A stretch of 28,890 bases of DNA. Source: a virus. Below, one piece after another: positions 2,084 to 28,890 of the stretch. The first letter of the stretch is position 1. Every line of letters starts with the position of its first letter. The notes under the pieces are model-generated. The model searched no databases, was not told the DNA's origin, and saw only the letters and a list, made by a program, of their open reading frames with translations. Made by a program: the position numbers and the translations under genes. The DNA lies in IMG/VR virus record IMGVR_UViG_3300005617_000292, positions 1 to 28,890 of that record; one strand, written 5' to 3'.

Positions 2084-4288
2084 CTAATTTCTGGAGACAA
2101 TTGGGCTGTTGCGAGCCGGGCTGTTCGCGGCAATTTTGTCGGCGGCTCCTGAGATCTTGGTCGCGGCGATCCCGAGCTGCTTGGCCGCGTCGTCCATGAT
2201 CAGGAACTTCTCGGCTTCGGCTTTGCCTTTGACGATATCGTCCCCATAGGCCTGGCTGCGGTCGACGGTCTTTTGGATGTGCCGATCGTCGAACATGGTC
2301 GGTCCAAGCAGGCCGCCCGTGTACGTATTCAGTACAGCGCGACCTGTGCTGACTCCTGCGAGCGGATCGCCTTCGTCGCTCAGGCGCTTCTGTTCACGCT
2401 CCCGAAGCTTCTCTAGCCGCGAGCGCGTTTCCGGTGATAGGCGCCCGGTTGTCCCGAGCTCCTGCGCCGCCTGAGTGCGAATTTCTTCCGAGTTCTGCGC
2501 CATCGCGCTGGCGCGCCGACCCGCATCGACCTCTTTCGAGGCCTGGATCATGTTCAGAATGCCGGCCGTCACGGCCGCAGTACCGATCACGATGCCGCCG
2601 CCCATGCCAACGCTCGTCGCTAGTGCCTTGGTAATGGCTTGACCGATGAGGGCCGAGCCGATGTCTTTCACGACGGCGGCGGTTAGCGCGACACCGATCC
2701 CAGACAGCGGATTGCTAGCCGCCCAGGTCGCTATCCCAGCGAAAGACTCGGTGACCGATGCGATCTTCGGAATGAGCGCCTCGAACTCGGGCATCATCCG
2801 CTCGATTGCCGGGAGCAGGCTGGACGAGAATGCTTCGCGCAGCCGCGTATTGATTTTCTCGAGCTTTACCGCGTCGGACTTGGCAACGTCGGCTGCATCC
2901 CGCTCGACCTCGGTGAAGTAGGCTGCCGCGTCGGAAGCGTCGGAGATGGTCTTGAGGACGGCGGCTTTGCCGGCCGCTTCCTTCTCCGCCGCCGTGCCCT
3001 TCGTTGAGTCTGCGGCGCTTCGGTATGCGCTGATGAGCGGGGATGCTGCGCGCACGCCGCGCACATCGAATAGGTTCCCGAGCTGCGTCAGGTTGCCGTG
3101 TGACTTCGAGATGATTTCCGCGAGCACTTGGCGGATGTCGCGCGCGCTCTTGGTGGCGTCTCCGCCTTCGAACACGTTGACCTGCTTACCGCCGAGCGCT
3201 TTGCCGCTCTTCAGATCGCCAGCGCTGGCAATCATCTGCGTCATCATCATCTGAACAGCGGTCGACGCTTCCGCGCCGCCACCGGTCGATGTGCGCGCCA
3301 GCTGAGCCAGCCCGCCGAGAGTCTTCATGCCGCCCACGCCGGTCATGCCCGCGCGCTGGGCCGCTGCCGCCATCTCGGGGAAGCTGTTGGCCATGTCGCG
3401 GAGCTCGAAGGCGCCGCGCTTGCCCTGGAAGGCGAGGACCGCGAATGCGTCCGCCATCTCCTTGGGCTTGGTGATGTTGAATTTCTGCGCGAGGTCCGCG
3501 GCGGTGCTGGCCACATCCTCGACGCTGGCGCCGGTGGCCATCGCGACGGTAGCGAACGTCCGAAGGTTCTCCGTGGCCGTCTTGATGTCGCCGGTACGCG
3601 CCGTATAGGTCTCGACGGCACCGACGAGGCCAGACTCCGAAGCGCCGGTGGATAGCGCCGTCTGCCGTACCGTATTGCGCAGCGCGCGCGGGTCGGTGGC
3701 CACTTCGCCCGACTGCCGAGCGTTCGCCGAGACCTGGCGGATCCGCTGGTCGATCCCGATCTCCTGCGAGACCGCCTCGCCAGCTCCCATCGCCCCGACC
3801 GCGCCGAGGATGGTGCCGCCGATCGTGGCGATGCCGCGCGCCGTGTTCATGACGCTGCTGCCAACGCCACGGGCAACGCTTTGGCCGGTCTTGGTCCAGG
3901 AAGCTTTCGAGGCCTTGGTGTCGGCCTTGATTTTCTGCTGCGCCTTTTGGTTCTCCTGGACCTCGATCTGGGCGAGCCGGCGCGCGTTGTCGGCCTTCTC
4001 CTGCCAAACCTTGCGCTCTGCCGCGAGCTTTTCGCGCTCGGTTTTCTTGGTAGCCGCCGCCTCTTCCTTGGCGATGCGCCGCTGCGCCGCGATGGCTTCG
4101 CGCTCGATCTTCCGCTGCGCCGCGATCGTCTCGCGCTCGGTCACGCGACGCGCAGTGGCGCCACCGGGCATCTTGTCGGCTTTGACGGCCGCGCGCTTGC
4201 CAGCAGCGGCTACCTCCGCCTCGACACCGCGGAATGCCCGCCGGATGTTTTGCTCACCCGTGACGGTGATATCGTACCTGAGATCCAA
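2084..4288 (-). CDS. Tail tape measure protein
   Basis: The tape measure sets tail length and is ejected with DNA. The N-terminal third is a long coiled coil with repeated Ala/Glu/Arg blocks (around RETIAAQRKIEREAIAAQRR, residues 52-115). The TP901-type core follows (about 140-420: GTILGAVGAMGAGEAVSQEI, LSTGASESGLVGAVETY, MANSFPEMAAAAQRAGM), then hydrophobic segments around 540-600 (GSALIGQAITKAL and GGGIVIGTAAVTAGILNMI), typical of membrane-penetrating parts. It has 734 residues, which would correspond to a tail of roughly 1 Angstrom-and-a-half per residue by the known rule. The start appears to be TTG 4288. It ends just before the gpN-like gene. Confidence 0.88.
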   Translation of the reverse strand: MDLRYDITVTGEQNIRRAFRGVEAEVAAAGKRAAVKADKMPGGATARRVTERETIAAQRKIEREAIAAQRRIAKEEAAATKKTEREKLAAERKVWQEKADNARRLAQIEVQENQKAQQKIKADTKASKASWTKTGQSVARGVGSSVMNTARGIATIGGTILGAVGAMGAGEAVSQEIGIDQRIRQVSANARQSGEVATDPRALRNTVRQTALSTGASESGLVGAVETYTARTGDIKTATENLRTFATVAMATGASVEDVASTAADLAQKFNITKPKEMADAFAVLAFQGKRGAFELRDMANSFPEMAAAAQRAGMTGVGGMKTLGGLAQLARTSTGGGAEASTAVQMMMTQMIASAGDLKSGKALGGKQVNVFEGGDATKSARDIRQVLAEIISKSHGNLTQLGNLFDVRGVRAASPLISAYRSAADSTKGTAAEKEAAGKAAVLKTISDASDAAAYFTEVERDAADVAKSDAVKLEKINTRLREAFSSSLLPAIERMMPEFEALIPKIASVTESFAGIATWAASNPLSGIGVALTAAVVKDIGSALIGQAITKALATSVGMGGGIVIGTAAVTAGILNMIQASKEVDAGRRASAMAQNSEEIRTQAAQELGTTGRLSPETRSRLEKLREREQKRLSDEGDPLAGVSTGRAVLNTYTGGLLGPTMFDDRHIQKTVDRSQAYGDDIVKGKAEAEKFLIMDDAAKQLGIAATKISGAADKIAANSPARNSPIVSRN

Positions 4289-14014: not shown

Positions 14015-15680
14015 CAGCACCCTCAGCCGCGGCGTGGTACGCGGTCGCTTCGTTCGTCGCTGCCGTCAGCGCGCGCTCTTCAGCGGCGTCGCGGTCCTCT
14101 TCGATCTCCTCGATCGCCTCGTTCGTGTCTTCGCGGCCGTAGTAGGGCAGGATCGCCTTGATCGCGTCCTTCTCGGGCACGAGATGAGCGTCCTTGGCAG
14201 CGGTAGCGGCGGCGACGGCTTGAGTGATTTCCTCAGCGCCAGCGCTGAAGTACTCGCCCCAATTCGGCACCATCTTCGGCGCGTACCAGATCTGTCCGTC
14301 GTTCGTGTCGACGTAGAACTTGGCGAGGATCGGCGCGGCTTTCTCAGCGCCAGGCAAGAGCAGGCCCTTGCCGTCAATCTTCATGACCCATTGGAGCATC
14401 AGCTCAATCAGTGGCTTGAGCGCGCCATCCCACCACGTGCATCGCATCTCATCGACGAGAGCGAGCAGCGGCTCATAGGCGAGCTCCAGGAACTTGGCCG
14501 ACATCTGGCCGGCCCCCGTGCGCCCCATGATTTCGGAGACGCTGACGAGCACCACGCCCATCGACTCGAGCAAGCGCGATCGGACGTCGTTGACGTGGGA
14601 CGTAGCCGCTTCGAAGGCCTTGCCGGTGGTCTCAATGAGGCCAACTTGTGCCTTGTCGTTGCGGTAGCTCCACATCTGGCCCGCGCCGCTCTTGCGGGCT
14701 GGCTTCGATGCGACCTCGCCGTGCTCAGGCTTGTCACCGCTCGGCGAATACCCAGTCGCTATGCGGCCCGTTGCGCCGGGCCCGTCGTCTTCTTCGACGC
14801 CGGTCTCGTACGGCTGCGGAACACCGAGAATATTGATGCCGCGGTGGCGCTGCGAGAGCGCGAAATTCAGCGCGTCGAACTCGTCCAGGAATTCGCCGTA
14901 GAGCGAAAACCCGTCGATGCTCGTTTCGCCTTCACTGCTCGCGTTGCGGATCCAGCGTGCCGGCACGAACCCGAGGTTGTGCGGCGTGGTGTTCTCGACC
15001 ACCCAGATCGGAGCCTCGTTGACTCGCGACTCGACCTGGCGGTACTCGATGAACGCTTGAGTGTCGATATCCTGGCGATACCAGTACTTCTTCGTCTCCG
15101 GCTTGCCATCGGCGCCAGTGACGGTCTTGTCGAACGTGTAGCACCAGGTGATGCTTTCGAGCTCTGCACTCGGGTCGCCGCCTTTGAACGTCGGGTAGAC
15201 GTCTTCAGCGTTGGCGAGCTCGATGCAGAATCGGCCCGCCTTGAGCTTGATGATCGCGAGCGTTGCACCAATCGCGAGCCCTTGCCGCATGGTGCGGCGC
15301 ATGCCTGGGCGTAGCCGCGAGTTCTCGATCAGCGCGTCGATGAAGCCTTCGAGGAACTCGGCATCGGTCTCGCTGACGGTGATGCCGGCGACCGCATCGT
15401 CTTCATCGACCTTCGAAACGCCGATCGTAGGAAAGCGCTGCTCACCAAACGTGAACTTGACGACCTGCTCGACGCATCCACGCGGCATCGGGTAGATGAC
15501 GCACGGCTTCCGCTCTCGGAGCGGCACCTCTTGCCCGTCCTTCAGGCCGGTGAAGAAGTCGGGGCGCCCGTCGTACTGTTCGCCCTTCAGGTACTTTCGC
15601 AGCTGCTGCAGCGCCTTGTAACGCGGCAACAGGCAAAGGTACTCGGGCTTGACGGGTGAATCGTAGGTGGTGGCAGCCAT
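13947..15680 (-). CDS. Portal protein
   Basis: The portal forms the ring at the capsid vertex through which DNA enters and leaves. The 577-residue protein directly follows terminase and precedes the MuF-type gene, the standard order. Features typical of SPP1/Mu-type portals include an N-terminal YLKGEQYDGRPDFF segment, the acidic central region GFIDALIENSRLR, a stem/wing region with HRGINILGVPQPYETG and SYRNDKAQVGLIETTGKAFEA, the helix EIMGRTGAGQMSAKFLELA, and a Glu/Ala-rich C-terminus (EAIEEIEEDRDAAEERAL). Start ATG 15680. The assignment is by gene order, length and these patterns. Confidence 0.85.
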   Translation of the reverse strand: MAATTYDSPVKPEYLCLLPRYKALQQLRKYLKGEQYDGRPDFFTGLKDGQEVPLRERKPCVIYPMPRGCVEQVVKFTFGEQRFPTIGVSKVDEDDAVAGITVSETDAEFLEGFIDALIENSRLRPGMRRTMRQGLAIGATLAIIKLKAGRFCIELANAEDVYPTFKGGDPSAELESITWCYTFDKTVTGADGKPETKKYWYRQDIDTQAFIEYRQVESRVNEAPIWVVENTTPHNLGFVPARWIRNASSEGETSIDGFSLYGEFLDEFDALNFALSQRHRGINILGVPQPYETGVEEDDGPGATGRIATGYSPSGDKPEHGEVASKPARKSGAGQMWSYRNDKAQVGLIETTGKAFEAATSHVNDVRSRLLESMGVVLVSVSEIMGRTGAGQMSAKFLELAYEPLLALVDEMRCTWWDGALKPLIELMLQWVMKIDGKGLLLPGAEKAAPILAKFYVDTNDGQIWYAPKMVPNWGEYFSAGAEEITQAVAAATAAKDAHLVPEKDAIKAILPYYGREDTNEAIEEIEEDRDAAEERALTAATNEATAYHAAAEGAGVTKPKADRGAGGGKPPSASKS

Positions 15681-15694
15681 CGGCGGCTTCGCTT

Positions 15695-16111
15695 ATGCTT
15701 CCCGCTATGCTGCTAGGATCAGTCGCTCACAGCCGCGCAAACCAGATAACTGCTTTACGCTTGAGCTTTCGCGACCTTCGCGGCTTCCGCGGGATCGCTT
15801 GTTTGCTTGGCTCAGACAATAAGCGTGACTGGTATCCAATCTCTACGGCGGCGGTTAGTAGCAGCACCGGAGAATTGCTGATTGCCGTGCCCGTAGTCGC
15901 TCTTGCGTGGCGAATTCTAGGCGCTGAGCTCTCACCGCTTCATGAGAGCAAACCGACGAATGGATTCGGCAGCTGGTCTTTCCTCTCGAACCGCCGCGCT
16001 ATCTGCGCTGGACGTTTCGAGGTATCGCGAAGCGGCATTTACAGTGCCGACCCTGGATGCGCTCCGCCACCAGAGGGGCGCGCGCTGCGCAGCGGGACGC
16101 TGCTTTACTAG
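15695..16111 (+). CDS. Possible opposite-strand gene between terminase and portal
   Basis: This 138-codon frame fills the only sizeable gap of the late region and runs against all neighbours. It ends within the terminase stop region and starts just beyond the portal start (ATG 15695 or 15707). All three minus-strand frames are broken by stops here. The predicted product has protein-like stretches such as ALRLSFRDLRGFRGIACLLG and ELLIAVPVVALAWRIL, the latter possibly a membrane helix. GC by hand count is about 57 percent (15721-16020), slightly below the portal gene. There is no good ribosome site and no recognised family. If real it resembles a moron, an independently expressed accessory gene. 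Confidence 0.35.
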   Translation: MLPAMLLGSVAHSRANQITALRLSFRDLRGFRGIACLLGSDNKRDWYPISTAAVSSSTGELLIAVPVVALAWRILGAELSPLHESKPTNGFGSWSFLSNRRAICAGRFEVSRSGIYSADPGCAPPPEGRALRSGTLLY

Positions 16112-17550
16112 CCCAGGGCTTCAGCGGGAGTGCCACCGCGGCGGCGATCGGGTCCGCCGAAGCGGTTGAAAATTGCGTAGCGGAGAGCGTCGGGCCCGTG
16201 GTTGTCGCGGTCGACGATCTCATCCGTGTAGCGGTCAGGGTCTTTGGGATCAGCTCGGCGCTTGTACAGACCAAGCTCACGCACAAGATTGGTACAGCTT
16301 GGGCTGACGTATAGCCGCGCTGTGCGGCTGATCAGTTCGGCCTCAACCCCGTTCACAGGGTCAGGCTCGGACCAAACCTCGCGGACGATGAACCGGTCAG
16401 CGACGCCCGCAACTCCGTCTTCGATCGAATTGTCGACCTCTTGGACGCGAGCGTGGCAGTCACGTCGATACGCCTCGATCCGAGCAGGCATCGACGGGTC
16501 GCCGTAGAACTTCGCAACCGGGTACCAGCTGAGCCACTTCTTTAGCTGCAGCTTCCACCAGTCCTCGGTTTTGTGCTGAGCGTAAACCTCGTCGAGCACG
16601 TAGCAAACGGCATCGCGGCCGCTGCCCAGTACTCCGATCAGAAGGAAAACGCCGGGGTCTTCGTAGCCATGATCGCAACCGATCAGGATCTCAGACCACT
16701 TCGCGTTTGCGGGAGGTTTCTTGACGTGAAAGCGCTCATCGAACGCTCCACCGTAAACCAAGCCCTCGCCAGCGTCGAAATCGCATTCCCACTCGCGAGC
16801 GAAAACGCTCGGCGTCGTGGTGGCTTTCGCCTTTGCGACCGCCTCTGCTGCCACAATCTCCGGAACGTCCCGGAACGTGGCGTAGAGAGAAAAAATCTTT
16901 TTGAACTCGGCGATCTGGAACGGCTGTAGACCGCTCACTTCCTCGCCGAGCCGGAGCCGCTTGCCGTATCGCCCGTCCCGGTACTGCCGATAAAGCAGGC
17001 CATGACGACCACGGCGCGGCGTTCCGCCGATCACCTCGAGACCAAGCGACCAAGTGGCGCTCAGCCAAGGAACGGCAACCGAATCATAGACGTTGCGATC
17101 GATGTCGTCCGCTTCGTCAGCGCACAGCAGATCGCAGCGTAAACCGCGCGCTGTTCGCGAGTTGTACTCGGAGGCCGGGACCGGCTTGACCCAGCTGCCG
17201 CCAGGGAAGGTGACGGCTCCGGTCTGCTTGTCGATCTTGGCGCCGAGAAAGTCCCAGCGTCCGCCGGGCTCAAGCTCGTTCAGGATGCCAGCGAGATGAA
17301 CGTCCTTGAATTGCTTCAAGGTTGGCATCAGCACGACGATGCGCACGCCCTTGAACGGATCCAACGCCTCACGGAGCTTGTTGTCCCACTTCGCGACTAG
17401 CCCCCACCAGAGCTGGCGAACGAACCACGATTTCCCAACACCGCGACCCCACGCGAGAACCAGCGTGCGGCGGCATGCGCCGGTGAATATCTTGTTCGCC
17501 CGAAACTGCGGCGTGTTCAGCGCGAGCTGGACATCAAGCCGGGCGTTCAA
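16108..17550 (-). CDS. terL: Terminase large subunit (packaging ATPase-nuclease)
   Basis: This motor pumps DNA into the prohead and cuts it. The ATPase half shows Walker A AWGRGVGKS (33-41), IVVLMPTLKQF, and Walker B LLCADEADD with Asp-Glu (141-149). The nuclease half has acidic residues in LIGCDHGYEDPG (Asp 293), KFYGDPSMP (Asp 351) and IVDRDNHGPDALRYAI (Asp 454). Its 480 residues are the usual length. The start is TTG 17550, overlapping the small subunit stop. It ends 428 bases before the portal start, an unusually large gap for this genome, occupied by a possible opposite-strand gene. Confidence 0.93.
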   Translation of the reverse strand: MNARLDVQLALNTPQFRANKIFTGACRRTLVLAWGRGVGKSWFVRQLWWGLVAKWDNKLREALDPFKGVRIVVLMPTLKQFKDVHLAGILNELEPGGRWDFLGAKIDKQTGAVTFPGGSWVKPVPASEYNSRTARGLRCDLLCADEADDIDRNVYDSVAVPWLSATWSLGLEVIGGTPRRGRHGLLYRQYRDGRYGKRLRLGEEVSGLQPFQIAEFKKIFSLYATFRDVPEIVAAEAVAKAKATTTPSVFAREWECDFDAGEGLVYGGAFDERFHVKKPPANAKWSEILIGCDHGYEDPGVFLLIGVLGSGRDAVCYVLDEVYAQHKTEDWWKLQLKKWLSWYPVAKFYGDPSMPARIEAYRRDCHARVQEVDNSIEDGVAGVADRFIVREVWSEPDPVNGVEAELISRTARLYVSPSCTNLVRELGLYKRRADPKDPDRYTDEIVDRDNHGPDALRYAIFNRFGGPDRRRGGTPAEALG

Positions 17551-20812: not shown

Positions 20813-22720
20813 TCATGGGTATCTCGCGCTTCCGTCGTCAAAATCGCCATCGAACTGCTTTACGTACTCGGGTCGCTCATCCAACGACTTACCCGTGAAG
20901 CTTGCCGTGACCTGGTTGAACTGCAGCTCGCACCAGTCGACAACCACAGGGCCGTCCTTGTTCTTTGGCACGTTGTACATGCGTGAGACGTTGTTCTCTC
21001 CGCTCGCGCCTGGCTTGATTTTACGCCAACCGAGCATGATGTGCTCAGCCATATTCTCGACGTCGCCAGATTCTTTCATGTCCTCGATCGTCGGTGGCTT
21101 GTCTTGAATTCGCTTCAGTTGCGAGAACACTACGCCCGCTGCAGCCACGTCGAGCTTCGTTCCCGGCGTCGACTTCTTGATCGCGTCGCCGATGATCTCG
21201 GCAGCTCGACTCACCTCGTTGCGCCGATCCTGCATCGGCCTCTTGGTCCGCATCCTCTGCAGGTAGTCGACGAGCACGAGCTGCGTTCCGATCTCTTCAC
21301 GACACGCCAGGATGGCTTCCGCAATCTGCTCCGCTGGCATCCCCATCGCATTCAGCAGCACGTAATTATGCGATGCAGCCGTGCCAATCTGCGCGATTCG
21401 CCCGATTTCGCGCGCGTCCAATTCGCCGTCTCGGACCCGCAGCGCATTCAGCTCACCCCTGCGGCACACGATGCGGCGCCCGTACATCAACGGCTGATCC
21501 TCGTTGACGACAACCAGGCACTTCACACCGAGCGGCAGGTTTTCTTCTAGGATCATCGTCGCCATGGTGCTCTTGCCCCAAGACGTCTGCGCCCCGACGC
21601 ACAGGATCATTCCCGAGCGCAACCCACCCAGCAGGCCATCGAGTTCTTTCACGCCCGTTGTGAACCCGCGCTTCGGCTTGTCCGAGGTCACGTGGTCGAA
21701 GACCTGCTTGATCAGTTGCCGTTCAGTGAACAGCGGGTAGCGTTCATGGATCGGCTTGGGCGCCTTCGGCCCGGTCGCTGTCTCCTCGTGCGAACTCTCT
21801 GGTTCAGGCCGATCCGCCTCGGCTGAAGGCTCACTCGGATCCGCTGCCGGCGGCGCCGCCACGCGCTGGGCTGGAGCCCACTCACGCTCCTCGCGCAGGA
21901 GGTAGCCGCGTTCGAGTCGCGAGTTTTGGCGCGCCTGCTTCGCCTTGTGGCGCAGCTCTTTCTCCGACCAAGCCGGCTGACAGCGGCCGTTGTAGTCGTT
22001 CCAGAGGATTCGAAACGTCGTGTCTTCGCTCAGGTCAAATCCGCATGCGAGCGCGCAGGCCACCTGCCACGTCGCGTCGTGCCCGTGCTGCCCAGCGATG
22101 GCGTCGGGCATCTTCGCGATGTACTTGAGCGCGCGCAGCTCGGCATTGCTCGGGTCAGATGCCCGATCGATCCGCTTTGGTTGCGCGGACGGCAACTCAC
22201 GTTTGAGCCATGCGTCGACGTTCATCGGGCCCGGCCCAGCGAGCAGTTCCGCACGAAACTCGCCGCCGGGTTTGGTGCCGGGCAGAAACCAAAATCGGCC
22301 CGGATCCTTTGTCGACGGGTCGACGTTTCCGCACCAAAGAGCGACGCGCTGCCAGAGCGCCTGGTGCTCGAACGCGCTCACTGCGCGCGAAAGGGGCAGC
22401 ACAACTCGGAACCGGTGCAACTCCGGAGTGTGTTTGCGGGTCGTCTGGACGAGCCCTTGGTAGGCCGCAAACTTCTCGAGCGCCCACTCGATGCTGCACC
22501 CGCCGTCGAAGTCCAGGCACAGCGCGTAGAGCTGCTGGACATGCTCCGCGGCGCGCTCACAAGGGCTGAATCGTCCCGGGGACCAACCTGGGTGCTCGCG
22601 GTCGCCTATGAATTCTCGACGCTGCGAGAGCCGCCTCAGGACGGTTTCCCAGTCGGGCGCCTCCCACTCGGAGCCCTGCGTGTCGACGAGGTTTGGCCAG
22701 AACGTGACTACGGGCTTCAT
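20813..22720 (-). CDS. Primase-polymerase / DnaB-type helicase fusion
   Basis: This 635-residue protein joins two replication activities. The N-terminal part is an archaeo-eukaryotic-type primase-polymerase: LCLDFDGG with the metal-binding Asp pair (70, 72), HRFRVVLPLSR (102-112), and DPGRFWFLPG (139-148). Residues about 205-265 (WQVACALACGFDL, LWNDYNGRCQPAW) resemble the PriCT helical domain. After a Pro/Glu linker (290-325) comes a RecA-fold helicase: Walker A GAQTSWGKST (376-385), Walker B LVLVDYLQ (481-488), FSQLKR (532-537) and KESGDVENMAEH (549-560), as in DnaB/RepA-like helicases. It should prime and unwind phage DNA. ATG 22720 overlaps the initiator stop. One protein supplies both functions, so the phage may not need host primase. 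Confidence 0.85.
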   Translation of the reverse strand: MKPVVTFWPNLVDTQGSEWEAPDWETVLRRLSQRREFIGDREHPGWSPGRFSPCERAAEHVQQLYALCLDFDGGCSIEWALEKFAAYQGLVQTTRKHTPELHRFRVVLPLSRAVSAFEHQALWQRVALWCGNVDPSTKDPGRFWFLPGTKPGGEFRAELLAGPGPMNVDAWLKRELPSAQPKRIDRASDPSNAELRALKYIAKMPDAIAGQHGHDATWQVACALACGFDLSEDTTFRILWNDYNGRCQPAWSEKELRHKAKQARQNSRLERGYLLREEREWAPAQRVAAPPAADPSEPSAEADRPEPESSHEETATGPKAPKPIHERYPLFTERQLIKQVFDHVTSDKPKRGFTTGVKELDGLLGGLRSGMILCVGAQTSWGKSTMATMILEENLPLGVKCLVVVNEDQPLMYGRRIVCRRGELNALRVRDGELDAREIGRIAQIGTAASHNYVLLNAMGMPAEQIAEAILACREEIGTQLVLVDYLQRMRTKRPMQDRRNEVSRAAEIIGDAIKKSTPGTKLDVAAAGVVFSQLKRIQDKPPTIEDMKESGDVENMAEHIMLGWRKIKPGASGENNVSRMYNVPKNKDGPVVVDWCELQFNQVTASFTGKSLDERPEYVKQFDGDFDDGSARYP

Positions 22721-23748
22721 GCGGCACCTGCCGGCATCTTCTTCATCCGATCGATCATCGCAGTCGGCGATTCGCGGTTCAGCGCGGATTCGCGCTTCAA
22801 TGCGCTTGCCAGGATCCGCGTGAATGCCGCCTCGTTGCCGAAGATGTACCCGACGCTCGCGTGTGGGATCTTGTTGTCGTCGGCCCGGCCCGAAACCATG
22901 TCATCGTCCGGCGCATACTTCGCGACCAGAAGGCAGTGATCTAGCCCGTGATGGTCGAGCGCCGTGGACAGCTTTAGGGCCTCGCCGCCAGCCCAATCGT
23001 CGCGCAGTTCGAGTTCAGGCGGGTGTCTGAAAGCAGCCTTCCAGGCTGCGTACACCGCCTGAACGTCGGGTCTTCTTGCTGGTGAGCCAACGGTGAGCGA
23101 ATCCAGGCACCGCTCGCCGGCGCCGCTTCTGGCCTTGGTCGGCGGGGGCGGGAGATCTTTTCTCCCGGAGGTTGGGTTGGGTTGGGTTGGGTTGGGGATA
23201 GGCGCGTGCGCGCCCTCGCGCGCGCGTGTGCCCGCCCGCGGGCGAGTCCCGCTGGGACTGTCCCCGGACTGTCCCGTCTCGCTTGTCCCGTCTTGTCCCG
23301 TCTTGTCCCACGGGACAGTCCCGTCAACTTGTCCCGTCTTGTCCCGTCCGGATCTGAGCGCCTCGAGCTCCTTGGCCTTCTGCTCGCGCCATACTCGTTT
23401 GCGCTCGCGCTCTTTCTCTCGTCTGAGCTGCTCTTCAGCGACACTGTTCGCATGGTCGTCGTAGTCGTGCAGTTGCCACCCGAACTCTGTTCGGTGCACG
23501 AGCCCATCACCCCTATCACCGCTTGGGTTGATACGTCCGCATTTCAGCAGCGCCTCGAGCGCTTTGGCTGGCCGCCTCGGGGCGCCGGGTAGCTTCTTGA
23601 TTTCTTCCTCGGGCACGAATCCGCCTGTCAGGTGCTGCGCCGCGTACCGCTTCAGCGCGAGCCACATCAAGATCGATTCCCCGCCGCCGAGCTCGACCGC
23701 TCTGACCCACTTATCGCTCCCGACGAACTCTTCTTTGATCGTGATCAA
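22717..23748 (-). CDS. Replication-initiator-like protein with internal repeat tract
   Basis: The start is TTG 23748, inside the HNH stop (TTGA); the frame is open further upstream but only opposite the HNH gene. Of 343 residues, about 1-80 look like a winged-helix, replisome-organiser-type domain (ITIKEEFVGSDKWVRAVEL and ALKRYAAQHLTGGFV). Then come a charged helix (about 95-118), a low-complexity linker with DKTGQ repeats and NPTQPNP repeats, and a C-terminal helical domain from about 235 (VQAVYAAWKAAF, HASVGYIFGNEAAF). The gene sits directly before the primase-helicase, with an ATGA overlap, as lambda O and similar initiators do before their helicase genes. Iteron-like DNA repeats lie inside the linker coding region. 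A helicase-loader role is an alternative. Confidence 0.6.
   Translation of the reverse strand: MITIKEEFVGSDKWVRAVELGGGESILMWLALKRYAAQHLTGGFVPEEEIKKLPGAPRRPAKALEALLKCGRINPSGDRGDGLVHRTEFGWQLHDYDDHANSVAEEQLRREKERERKRVWREQKAKELEALRSGRDKTGQVDGTVPWDKTGQDGTSETGQSGDSPSGTRPRAGTRAREGAHAPIPNPTQPNPTSGRKDLPPPPTKARSGAGERCLDSLTVGSPARRPDVQAVYAAWKAAFRHPPELELRDDWAGGEALKLSTALDHHGLDHCLLVAKYAPDDDMVSGRADDNKIPHASVGYIFGNEAAFTRILASALKRESALNRESPTAMIDRMKKMPAGAA
23171..23197 (+). repeat. G-quadruplex-type GTTGG tandem repeat
   Basis: Five tandem GTTGG units give four GGG tracts and a final GGGG, separated by TT loops, on the plus strand. This is a classical G-quadruplex motif. It lies about 70 bases from the iteron-like repeats and encodes the NPTQPNP stretch on the opposite strand. 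Confidence 0.6.
23269..23348. repeat. Iteron-like direct repeats, candidate replication origin
   Basis: The plus strand carries the ten-base unit TTGTCCCGTC exactly at 23283-23292, 23293-23302, 23329-23338 and 23339-23348. There is one variant CTGTCCCGTC at 23269-23278 and a degenerate copy at 23303. Between the copies lies an inverted repeat TGTCCC/GGGACA (23304-23317) with a two-base spacer. The repeats lie within the initiator-like gene, as the lambda ori iterons lie within O. They encode DKTGQ repeats in the protein. Confidence 0.5.
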
Positions 23749-24212
23749 CGGGACCCCTTCATCTTGCGCTTGATTCTCGCCATGGTGAGAGCGAGCACGA
23801 GTCTCACCGATACGGGTTGATCTCCGAGCCCGAGGTTGCACGTGCTGCACATCGCCGCGAGGTTGTCTGGATGGTTCAGATCGGCATCGGTCAGCCCCTC
23901 GGCGCGGCCGGCGGCGACGCTCAGTAGGTGGCCAACGTGAAGCTCCGCGCCCATGTTGTGGCAGATCTCGCAGCAGCCACCGGCGCGCTCGAATAGGATT
24001 TGGGCGCGTAGCCCGGGCGAGATGTCGACGTCGCGAGTCGAGCGCACGGATCGCACCGGTTTGCCAGTCTCTGCACGCGGGGCGTTGTACTGGAACCGAT
24101 CGCATCCGAGGCAATAGACGCAATCCTGCGCACCCGTCTCCTTGATGCGACCTGTCGTGCCGCCGCACTGAGAGCATGGGTTTCTTAGTGGGTAGGGTAT
24201 TCGCTCGTTCAC
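23745..24212 (-). CDS. HNH endonuclease with N-terminal zinc ribbon
   Basis: The N-terminal 40 residues contain a zinc ribbon (CSQC at 13-16, CVYC at 31-34). The HNH core follows: CEIC (81-84), ELHVGHLLSV with the catalytic His pair (92, 95), then HPDNLAAMCSTCN with the Asn and second cysteine pair (114-126). HNH proteins nick or cut DNA; in phages they may help packaging, recombination or replication, and some are homing enzymes. It begins at GTG 24212, coupled to the VRR-NUC gene, and ends in a TTGA overlap with the replication gene. Because it lies among replication genes, not beside terminase, a packaging role is less likely. Confidence 0.85.
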   Translation of the reverse strand: MNERIPYPLRNPCSQCGGTTGRIKETGAQDCVYCLGCDRFQYNAPRAETGKPVRSVRSTRDVDISPGLRAQILFERAGGCCEICHNMGAELHVGHLLSVAAGRAEGLTDADLNHPDNLAAMCSTCNLGLGDQPVSVRLVLALTMARIKRKMKGSR

Positions 24213-27932: not shown

Positions 27933-28096
27933 GCTCCACCTCCCACCCCAGCCACGAACCTGGTGGGGTGGCGACGGCGACGCAGAGAGAACTCTCCCGT
28001 GCCAGCCTTGACGCGGGCGGTCAGGTCAGGCCACTTGGCCGCGTCTCGCTTGGCTTCGCGCAGCGCGCGGATGAGCCAGCCTTTGCGGAGGGTCAC
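27929..28096 (-). CDS. Small basic protein (55 aa) of unknown function
   Basis: This short frame exactly fills the space between integrase and the next gene. It starts with GTG inside the integrase stop (GTGA at 28096-28093), and its TGA overlaps the next GTG start (27932-27929). Both junctions match the 4-base coupling seen throughout this operon, which is the main reason to accept it. The product begins MTLRKGWLIRALREAKRD and is rich in Arg and Lys, with an RRRRH stretch near residue 40. It has no membrane segment and no recognised domain. A small DNA- or RNA-binding role, perhaps accessory to integration, is only a guess from charge and position. Confidence 0.55.
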   Translation of the reverse strand: MTLRKGWLIRALREAKRDAAKWPDLTARVKAGTGEFSLRRRRHPTRFVAGVGGGA

Positions 28097-28890
28097 GACG
28101 CGCCTCCCGTTGACCGCTTGCGAGCGACGTAGGGCGCGGTGGTTTTGCGGAGCTCTCGCGCTAGCTCGGCTGGGCGGCCTCGGTCCGACTCCTCGCCAAT
28201 GGCGAGCAGGAAGTCGCGCTCCTCGGATTCTTCACTCGCGTCCAAAGTCGCCTCCAGCGCATCGGTGGCGCTGGTTTCGTGAGCCTTGTTCGCGCCGCGC
28301 TTGCGCGCTGAGGCGCTAGATTCCGCCGGTTCTCCGCGGTTCTCCCTGGTTCGAGTCCTTGAGTCGGAGCCACTTTCCAGCATCTTTTCTGCCTCCGTAT
28401 TTTCTGAGTCAAGCGGTGCGACAAGAACCGAGTAGGTCGGCAGACGGAGCATCGCCGCGCAAAACTCATCCCATTCGCGGTGGGTGTAGTGGTCGATCAT
28501 CTTTCCCGAGGCGTTATGGGTGATGCGCTCGACCACCTTCTGGTCGGCCCCGCCGCGCTGGATGGCGCTGATGAAGGTGTGGCGGGTGGCGTGCATGCCG
28601 CGACAGGTCACGCCGGCGCGTGTGCAGTCCGCAACGATGGCCTTGTAGGCGCCGGAACGGCTCAGTGGGTTGGTCAGCCTGGGGAACGCCGGCACGATGA
28701 AGTCGTCGGGCTTGGGCTTCCGGAGGTAGACGATCTCGAAACCGGTCAACCACCACTCGGTGAGGATGCGCCCGAGCTCGGGGTGGATCGGCGCCTTCCG
28801 CGGGTTGTCGGTCTTGAGCGGTTGGTCATTGTACTGGGTGCCGATGGTCATGCAGCCGAGTGGAGCTGACCGTTCCAGGTCACGCCAGCG
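28093..28890 (-). CDS. int: Tyrosine site-specific recombinase (phage integrase), 5' part beyond the window edge
   Basis: This is the catalytic and C-terminal part of a phage integrase, which recombines phage attP with host attB. The reading frame stays open to base 28890 and begins with RWRDL, typical of the segment just after the first catalytic arginine, so the true start is to the right; the ATG at 28851 is internal. Visible signature: HATRHTF (catalytic His and Arg, codons near 28593-28582), then ITHNASGKMIDHYTH with the third-box His and the nucleophile Tyr at 28488-28486. About 130 residues follow the Tyr, an unusually long, charged, low-complexity tail, and its coding DNA contains a tRNA 3'-end-like sequence (28348-28372) that looks like attP. 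The stop overlaps the next start (GTGA). Family assignment is firm; the substrate tRNA is inferred. Confidence 0.9.
   Translation of the reverse strand, partial: RWRDLERSAPLGCMTIGTQYNDQPLKTDNPRKAPIHPELGRILTEWWLTGFEIVYLRKPKPDDFIVPAFPRLTNPLSRSGAYKAIVADCTRAGVTCRGMHATRHTFISAIQRGGADQKVVERITHNASGKMIDHYTHREWDEFCAAMLRLPTYSVLVAPLDSENTEAEKMLESGSDSRTRTRENRGEPAESSASARKRGANKAHETSATDALEATLDASEESEERDFLLAIGEESDRGRPAELARELRKTTAPYVARKRSTGGAS
28348..28372 (+). other. attP: Putative attP core inside int: 3' half of a tRNA gene (tRNA-Asn-like)
   Basis: On the plus strand this reads as the end of a tRNA. A seven-base T-loop TTCGAGT (28350-28356) is followed by the 3' T-stem CCTTG (28357-28361), a seven-base acceptor strand AGTCGGA (28362-28368), discriminator G and CCA (28370-28372), in exactly canonical spacing. 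The 5' half of a tRNA is absent to the left, and the 5' T-stem CCTGG does not pair fully with CCTTG, as expected if homology starts near 28348. An acceptor beginning TCCGACT with discriminator G fits tRNA-Asn best. Integrase coding sequence lies on both sides, so the site appears uncut. Confidence 0.65.

Follow-up and report, generated by a model that had tools for sequence, protein, structure and literature searches.

A probable attP site, copied from the 3' end of a tRNA-Asn gene, lies antisense within the integrase gene of a metagenomic myovirus

Why should the integrase gene of a phage contain the end of a tRNA gene? We analyzed a virus contig of 28,890 bases (the whole stretch is called the window here), which has head, sheath, and tape-measure genes as well as an Mx8-like tyrosine integrase gene (int; 28093..28890, minus strand). 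The int ORF is open at the end of the contig, so the N terminus of the integrase (Int) is missing; 265 residues are present. These match PF00589 (E = 2.3e-8), a PHROG integrase family (6.9e-14), and the integrase of Mx8, which is the only phage that Int matched (32% identity, E = 1e-14). The codon for the catalytic tyrosine (28486..28488, minus strand; motif DHYTH) aligns with that of Mx8 (DAYTT) and of other relatives. Downstream of this codon, and antisense to int, is the 25-base sequence GGTTCGAGTCCTTGAGTCGGAGCCA (28348-28372, plus strand). We propose that these 25 bases are very probably the attP core of a temperate myovirus, copied from the 3' end of a tRNA-Asn(GTT) gene, and that integration would exchange the C terminus of Int. 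That the site is attP seems almost certain, given its match to tRNA-Asn, the antisense-tRNA architecture of related integrases, and the in-frame tails at the far ends of integrated elements.

The core contains a T-loop (TTCGAGT, 28350-28356), the 3' half of a T-stem (CCTTG, 28357-28361), an acceptor strand of seven bases (AGTCGGA, 28362-28368), the discriminator G (G73, 28369), and CCA (28370-28372), all on the plus strand and exactly in the register of a tRNA. A strict pattern for tRNA 3' ends (GGTTCRANTCC-N11-CCA) matched once in the 28,890-base window, and 100 shuffles gave no match; this search found no second tRNA-3'-end-like site in the window. The bases upstream of the core do not complete the 5' half of the T-stem, the remainder of the tRNA is not present, and ARAGORN found no tRNA at the site. 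A core without the rest of the tRNA is as expected for attP. We found no terminator or promoter at the core site. From the tyrosine codon to the CCA end of the core is 116 bases, and the core corresponds to residues 173-181 of the 265, with 84 codons remaining before the stop. A sequence-only reading of the window had described the tRNA parts as perfectly spaced within the integrase, had put them about 115 bases past the tyrosine codon, and had expected about 84 downstream residues to be replaced upon integration. The pattern search, the measured distance, and the residue count bear out the spacing, the position, and the length of the tail, and the replacement is predicted by in-silico integration of the window phage (below).

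We searched 379 genomes from one bacterial phylum for near matches to the core, allowing up to three mismatches. Of the 15 near matches, 14 were the 3' ends of tRNA-Asn(GTT) genes, in exact register, while a reversed control pattern had 2 matches. By these comparisons, the identity of the core as tRNA-Asn(GTT) is confirmed, and so is the origin that had been suggested before any search. Two genomes, G482 and G485, have intact tRNA-Asn(GTT) genes that are identical to the core over 23 bases (GGTTCGAGTCCTTGAGTCGGAGC) and whose stems pair fully (CAAGG/CCTTG and TCCGACT/AGTCGGA). After these 23 bases, they have AA or AG where the phage core has CA. Hence these genes end in GCAA or GCAG, without an encoded CCA, and the phage core supplies it. 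The expected bacterial tRNA-Asn with the same ending was thus found for 23 bases and nowhere for all 25: the exact 25-mer had no match in the viral and bacterial genome collections, either in another virus or in any genome. The lack of CCA in the best candidate host genes would account for this. No Mx8-like integrase lies within the flanking stretches that we examined around the tRNA-Asn genes of G482 and G485, so these genes look like empty attB sites. (Relatives in the family do encode the CCA of tRNA-Asn, though G485 [L159] and G482 [L160] do not.)

In our model, Int would recombine the core with the identical bases of the host's tRNA-Asn gene. The phage core would restore a complete tRNA 3' end and would add the CCA that is missing from the candidate host genes. 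Indeed, when we fused the 5' part of the host gene to the core from the phage in silico, the product was a perfect tRNA-Asn of 76 bases in which CCA is encoded. After integration, int would run antisense into the tRNA, and its stop codon would fall inside the tRNA. In the in-silico lysogen, about 14 residues (LDPAVNSRLLYQLS) take the place of the 84 that follow the core in Int, and the predicted lysogen form ends in RTRTLDPAVNSRLLYQLS. Because the core lies after the catalytic tyrosine, only the C-terminal tail would be exchanged and the catalytic part would stay whole. The prophage would keep the detached tail of 84 residues at its far end, and the phage form of Int would return upon excision. 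By analogy to the report on Mx8 (PMC6070905), the two forms may differ in activity. We did not find an integrated copy of the window phage in the genomes that we searched.

The phage-form tail (84 residues plus the stop codon; 28093..28347, minus strand) looks like real coding sequence by its codon usage. In the frame of int, its log-odds score is 0.124, which is the best among the six frames, while 95% of wrong-frame windows score below 0.031. Since the frame of int runs on past the core into coding sequence, attP appears to be uncut. The sequence-only reading had reached the same conclusion from phage genes on both sides of the core. That argument fails, as there are phage genes only to the left; to the right is just the remainder of int, which is cut off by the end of the contig. 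Its interpretation of the site as attP is supported and can be refined in two respects: the orientation is antisense to int, and CCA is not encoded in the host genes that we found.

The closest known system is phage Mx8, whose attP is within int, and whose integration alters the specificity of Int without inactivating it (reviewed in PMC6070905). The annotated attP core of Mx8 (D86464, 2387-2415) lies inside int and consists of the 3' end of a tRNA-Asp in antisense orientation. The integrases of Mx8 and the window phage are related, albeit at only the 32% identity given above. In both phages, the core is an antisense tRNA 3' end inside int, downstream of the tyrosine codon, and has the same polarity relative to int, which vindicates the likeness to Mx8 that had been noted from the letters alone. 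Integration rewrites the C terminus of Int in Mx8 and, by prediction, in the window phage. The gene order is also shared: int is followed by genes for an HNH endonuclease (23745..24212, minus strand, in the window) and for a replication initiation protein (22717..23775, minus strand, for the part of the ORF that was scanned; PHROG 2447, E = 9.9e-19). The two phages differ in their targets (tRNA-Asp for Mx8, tRNA-Asn for the window phage) and in their tails: Mx8 is podovirus-like (PMC6070905), while the window phage, with its sheath gene, has a contractile tail.

Two other kinds of integration system share part of this arrangement. The suicidal integrases of SSV-type archaeal viruses also have the recombination site inside the integrase gene, and integration inactivates the gene (PMC8371274). 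But SSV-type integration splits off the catalytic part of the integrase, whereas the core of the window phage lies after the tyrosine codon and recombination there would not detach the catalytic part. In ordinary phages and islands that integrate into tRNA or tmRNA genes (the Islander type), a core from the tRNA 3' end restores the target gene (PMC4383910), as in our model for the window phage; however, their attP is normally outside of int. The Islander authors did mention that the integrases of Mx8 and SSV extend across attP (PMC4383910).

We then considered Mx8-like integrases in chromosomes (E ≤ 1e-20; 26 of 27 were examined). All of the counts are based on an alignment of real sequences only (A3); another alignment (A2), in which one row was an invented consensus and not a real sequence, was the seed for one viral search only. 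In 18 of the 26, the ORF extends at its 3' end into a tRNA gene (Asp, Glu, Pro, Ala, Leu, or SeC) or a tmRNA gene on the opposite strand; this overlap is absent from the other 8. In contrast, among longer integrases of a generic kind, also from this order, just 3 of 20 overlap an antisense tRNA gene. (We dropped the top matches to PF00589 as a control, as by our reading these were mostly Xer-like, and used the longer integrases instead.) In an Mx8-like prophage (L014), for instance, the integrase has already been rewritten, and its last residues come from antisense tRNA-Asp (ARSTGLEPVASGVTGRRSNQLN). In the predicted host family, Mx8-like integrases also target tRNA-Met and tRNA-Cys. Across the phylum, the targets that we saw comprise tRNA-Asp, Ala, Leu, Glu, Pro, Cys, Met, and SeC, tmRNA, and now tRNA-Asn. 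We rejected L006 as a further case: a tRNA-like end follows its int on the same strand, which is the ordinary arrangement.

In eight integrated elements, the core is repeated at the far end (the repeats are about 18-29 bases), and reading on from the far-end repeat in the frame of int gives an open tail, roughly 55-115 residues long. These open tails are the displaced C termini of the predicted phage forms of Int. The repeats are at the corresponding place in int, which is where the attP reading of the window had implied that they should be. It is possible, although we suggest it tentatively, that integrases whose C termini are rewritten at tRNA or tmRNA genes are a phylum-wide strategy, and that the removable tail acts as a heritable switch that reflects the integration state. 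Alternatively, the replacement of the C terminus could be a neutral by-product of having attP within int, and the tail could have no regulatory role. We see this as a serious possibility that falls somewhat short of an even chance; it bears only on what the tail does and does not conflict with the site being attP. Neutrality would fit with how greatly the tails vary between elements, and the window tail has no significant similarity to any of the other displaced tails. (We rejected a family-wide tail motif: the similarity between AELAREL in the window tail and AELARAL in the tail from G453 is not above that of shuffles.) On the other hand, the far-end tails have kept an open int frame in all eight elements, two of them share a zinc-ribbon-like end, and the rewritten integrase of Mx8 is reported to have altered specificity (PMC6070905).

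The only element that we found in a tRNA-Asn gene is from G453 (L070; G453:C538, 2215-10060). This element is 7.6 kb and has perfect 25-base repeats, which are the same 25 tRNA bases as the window core and end at the same GG of the 5' T-stem. Although the integrase here belongs to another, canonical type, it too shows antisense rewriting, and its displaced tail lies in frame at the far end of the element. We found no Mx8-like integrase that is rewritten by tRNA-Asn. Could the core of the window phage then be a fossil, left from an earlier specificity or from capture of host DNA, while the phage now integrates at another site? We consider this quite improbable. In favor of a fossil, the exact 25-mer was found in no genome, and no lysogen of the window phage was found. 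But the exact 23-base match to tRNA-Asn is in the same family as the closest relatives of Int, the core extends just as far as it does in integrated relatives, its distance from the tyrosine codon (116 bases) is near the usual range (mostly 148-285 in relatives), and the window has no other tRNA-3'-end-like site. Finally, the idea that the coding sequence of the integrase resembles a tRNA end by chance has a negligible probability and is refuted in practice: T-loop-like motifs with at most one mismatch do occur randomly (six in the window, versus 2.6 expected by chance), but the full pattern is absent from the shuffles, 14 of the 15 near matches elsewhere are tRNA-Asn in exact register, and relatives have the same architecture.

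If the core is attP, as we propose, then its target bears on the host. The closest integrases to Int are from G446 (51% identity) and G119 (47%), which belong to the family of G482 and G485. Relatives of the window's terminase large subunit (16108..17550, minus strand) are also found in prophages of this family. Together with the match to tRNA-Asn, these similarities indicate one host group, and this bacterial family is the probable host. (In a related prophage, L191 [G496:C221], genes for tRNA-Asn and tRNA-Met lie near the terminase gene, at 15323-15506.) The terminase of MW202476 (L013), a circular phage of 77 kb, is 70% identical to that of the window phage. We set its integrase aside as a comparison, as it is unrelated to Int and has no such core site. 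As the terminase is shared and the integrase is not, integration modules seem to be swapped between these phages.

The Int and attP of the window phage are probably a further case of the Mx8 kind, and the breadth of the arrangement may be what is new. We did not find any open-access paper that describes a phylum-wide spread of integrases whose C termini are rewritten (most subscription papers were outside our search). For an otherwise anonymous metagenomic phage, our analysis names an integration target and a probable host group. Furthermore, Mx8, the single textbook case, now belongs to a large set of cases open to comparison, in which both tails (phage form and lysogen form) and the target can all be read from the sequence. 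With many natural variants, it could be tested directly whether replacing the C terminus of Int sets the direction of integration.

We also noticed other features of these integrases. The displaced tails from G379 and G190 (L088-L090 and L100-L102) share a zinc-ribbon-like CxxC...CxxC end (LHCPECGEP...CEPCG and LHCADCGAP...CSVCG), and integration would remove this segment from Int. Near the far end of the element in G180 (L095-L097) are three copies of the core, 97 bases apart, and G190 (L100-L102) has three copies within 4 kb near its far end, as if from successive integrations. In another virus contig (L015, at about 6530), an antisense T-loop-like stretch lies within int, about 200 bases past the tyrosine codon; it lacks a clear CCA but is possibly another attP within int. 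At L016 (G007:C90), two related integrases are in tandem, and the second runs antisense into a tmRNA gene. Lastly, in L053, L014, and the int of Mx8 (L002, about 3520-3570), a GC-rich hairpin and a run of Ts follow on the tRNA strand, just beyond the CCA and inside int, so the tRNA gene seems to receive a new terminator from the element.
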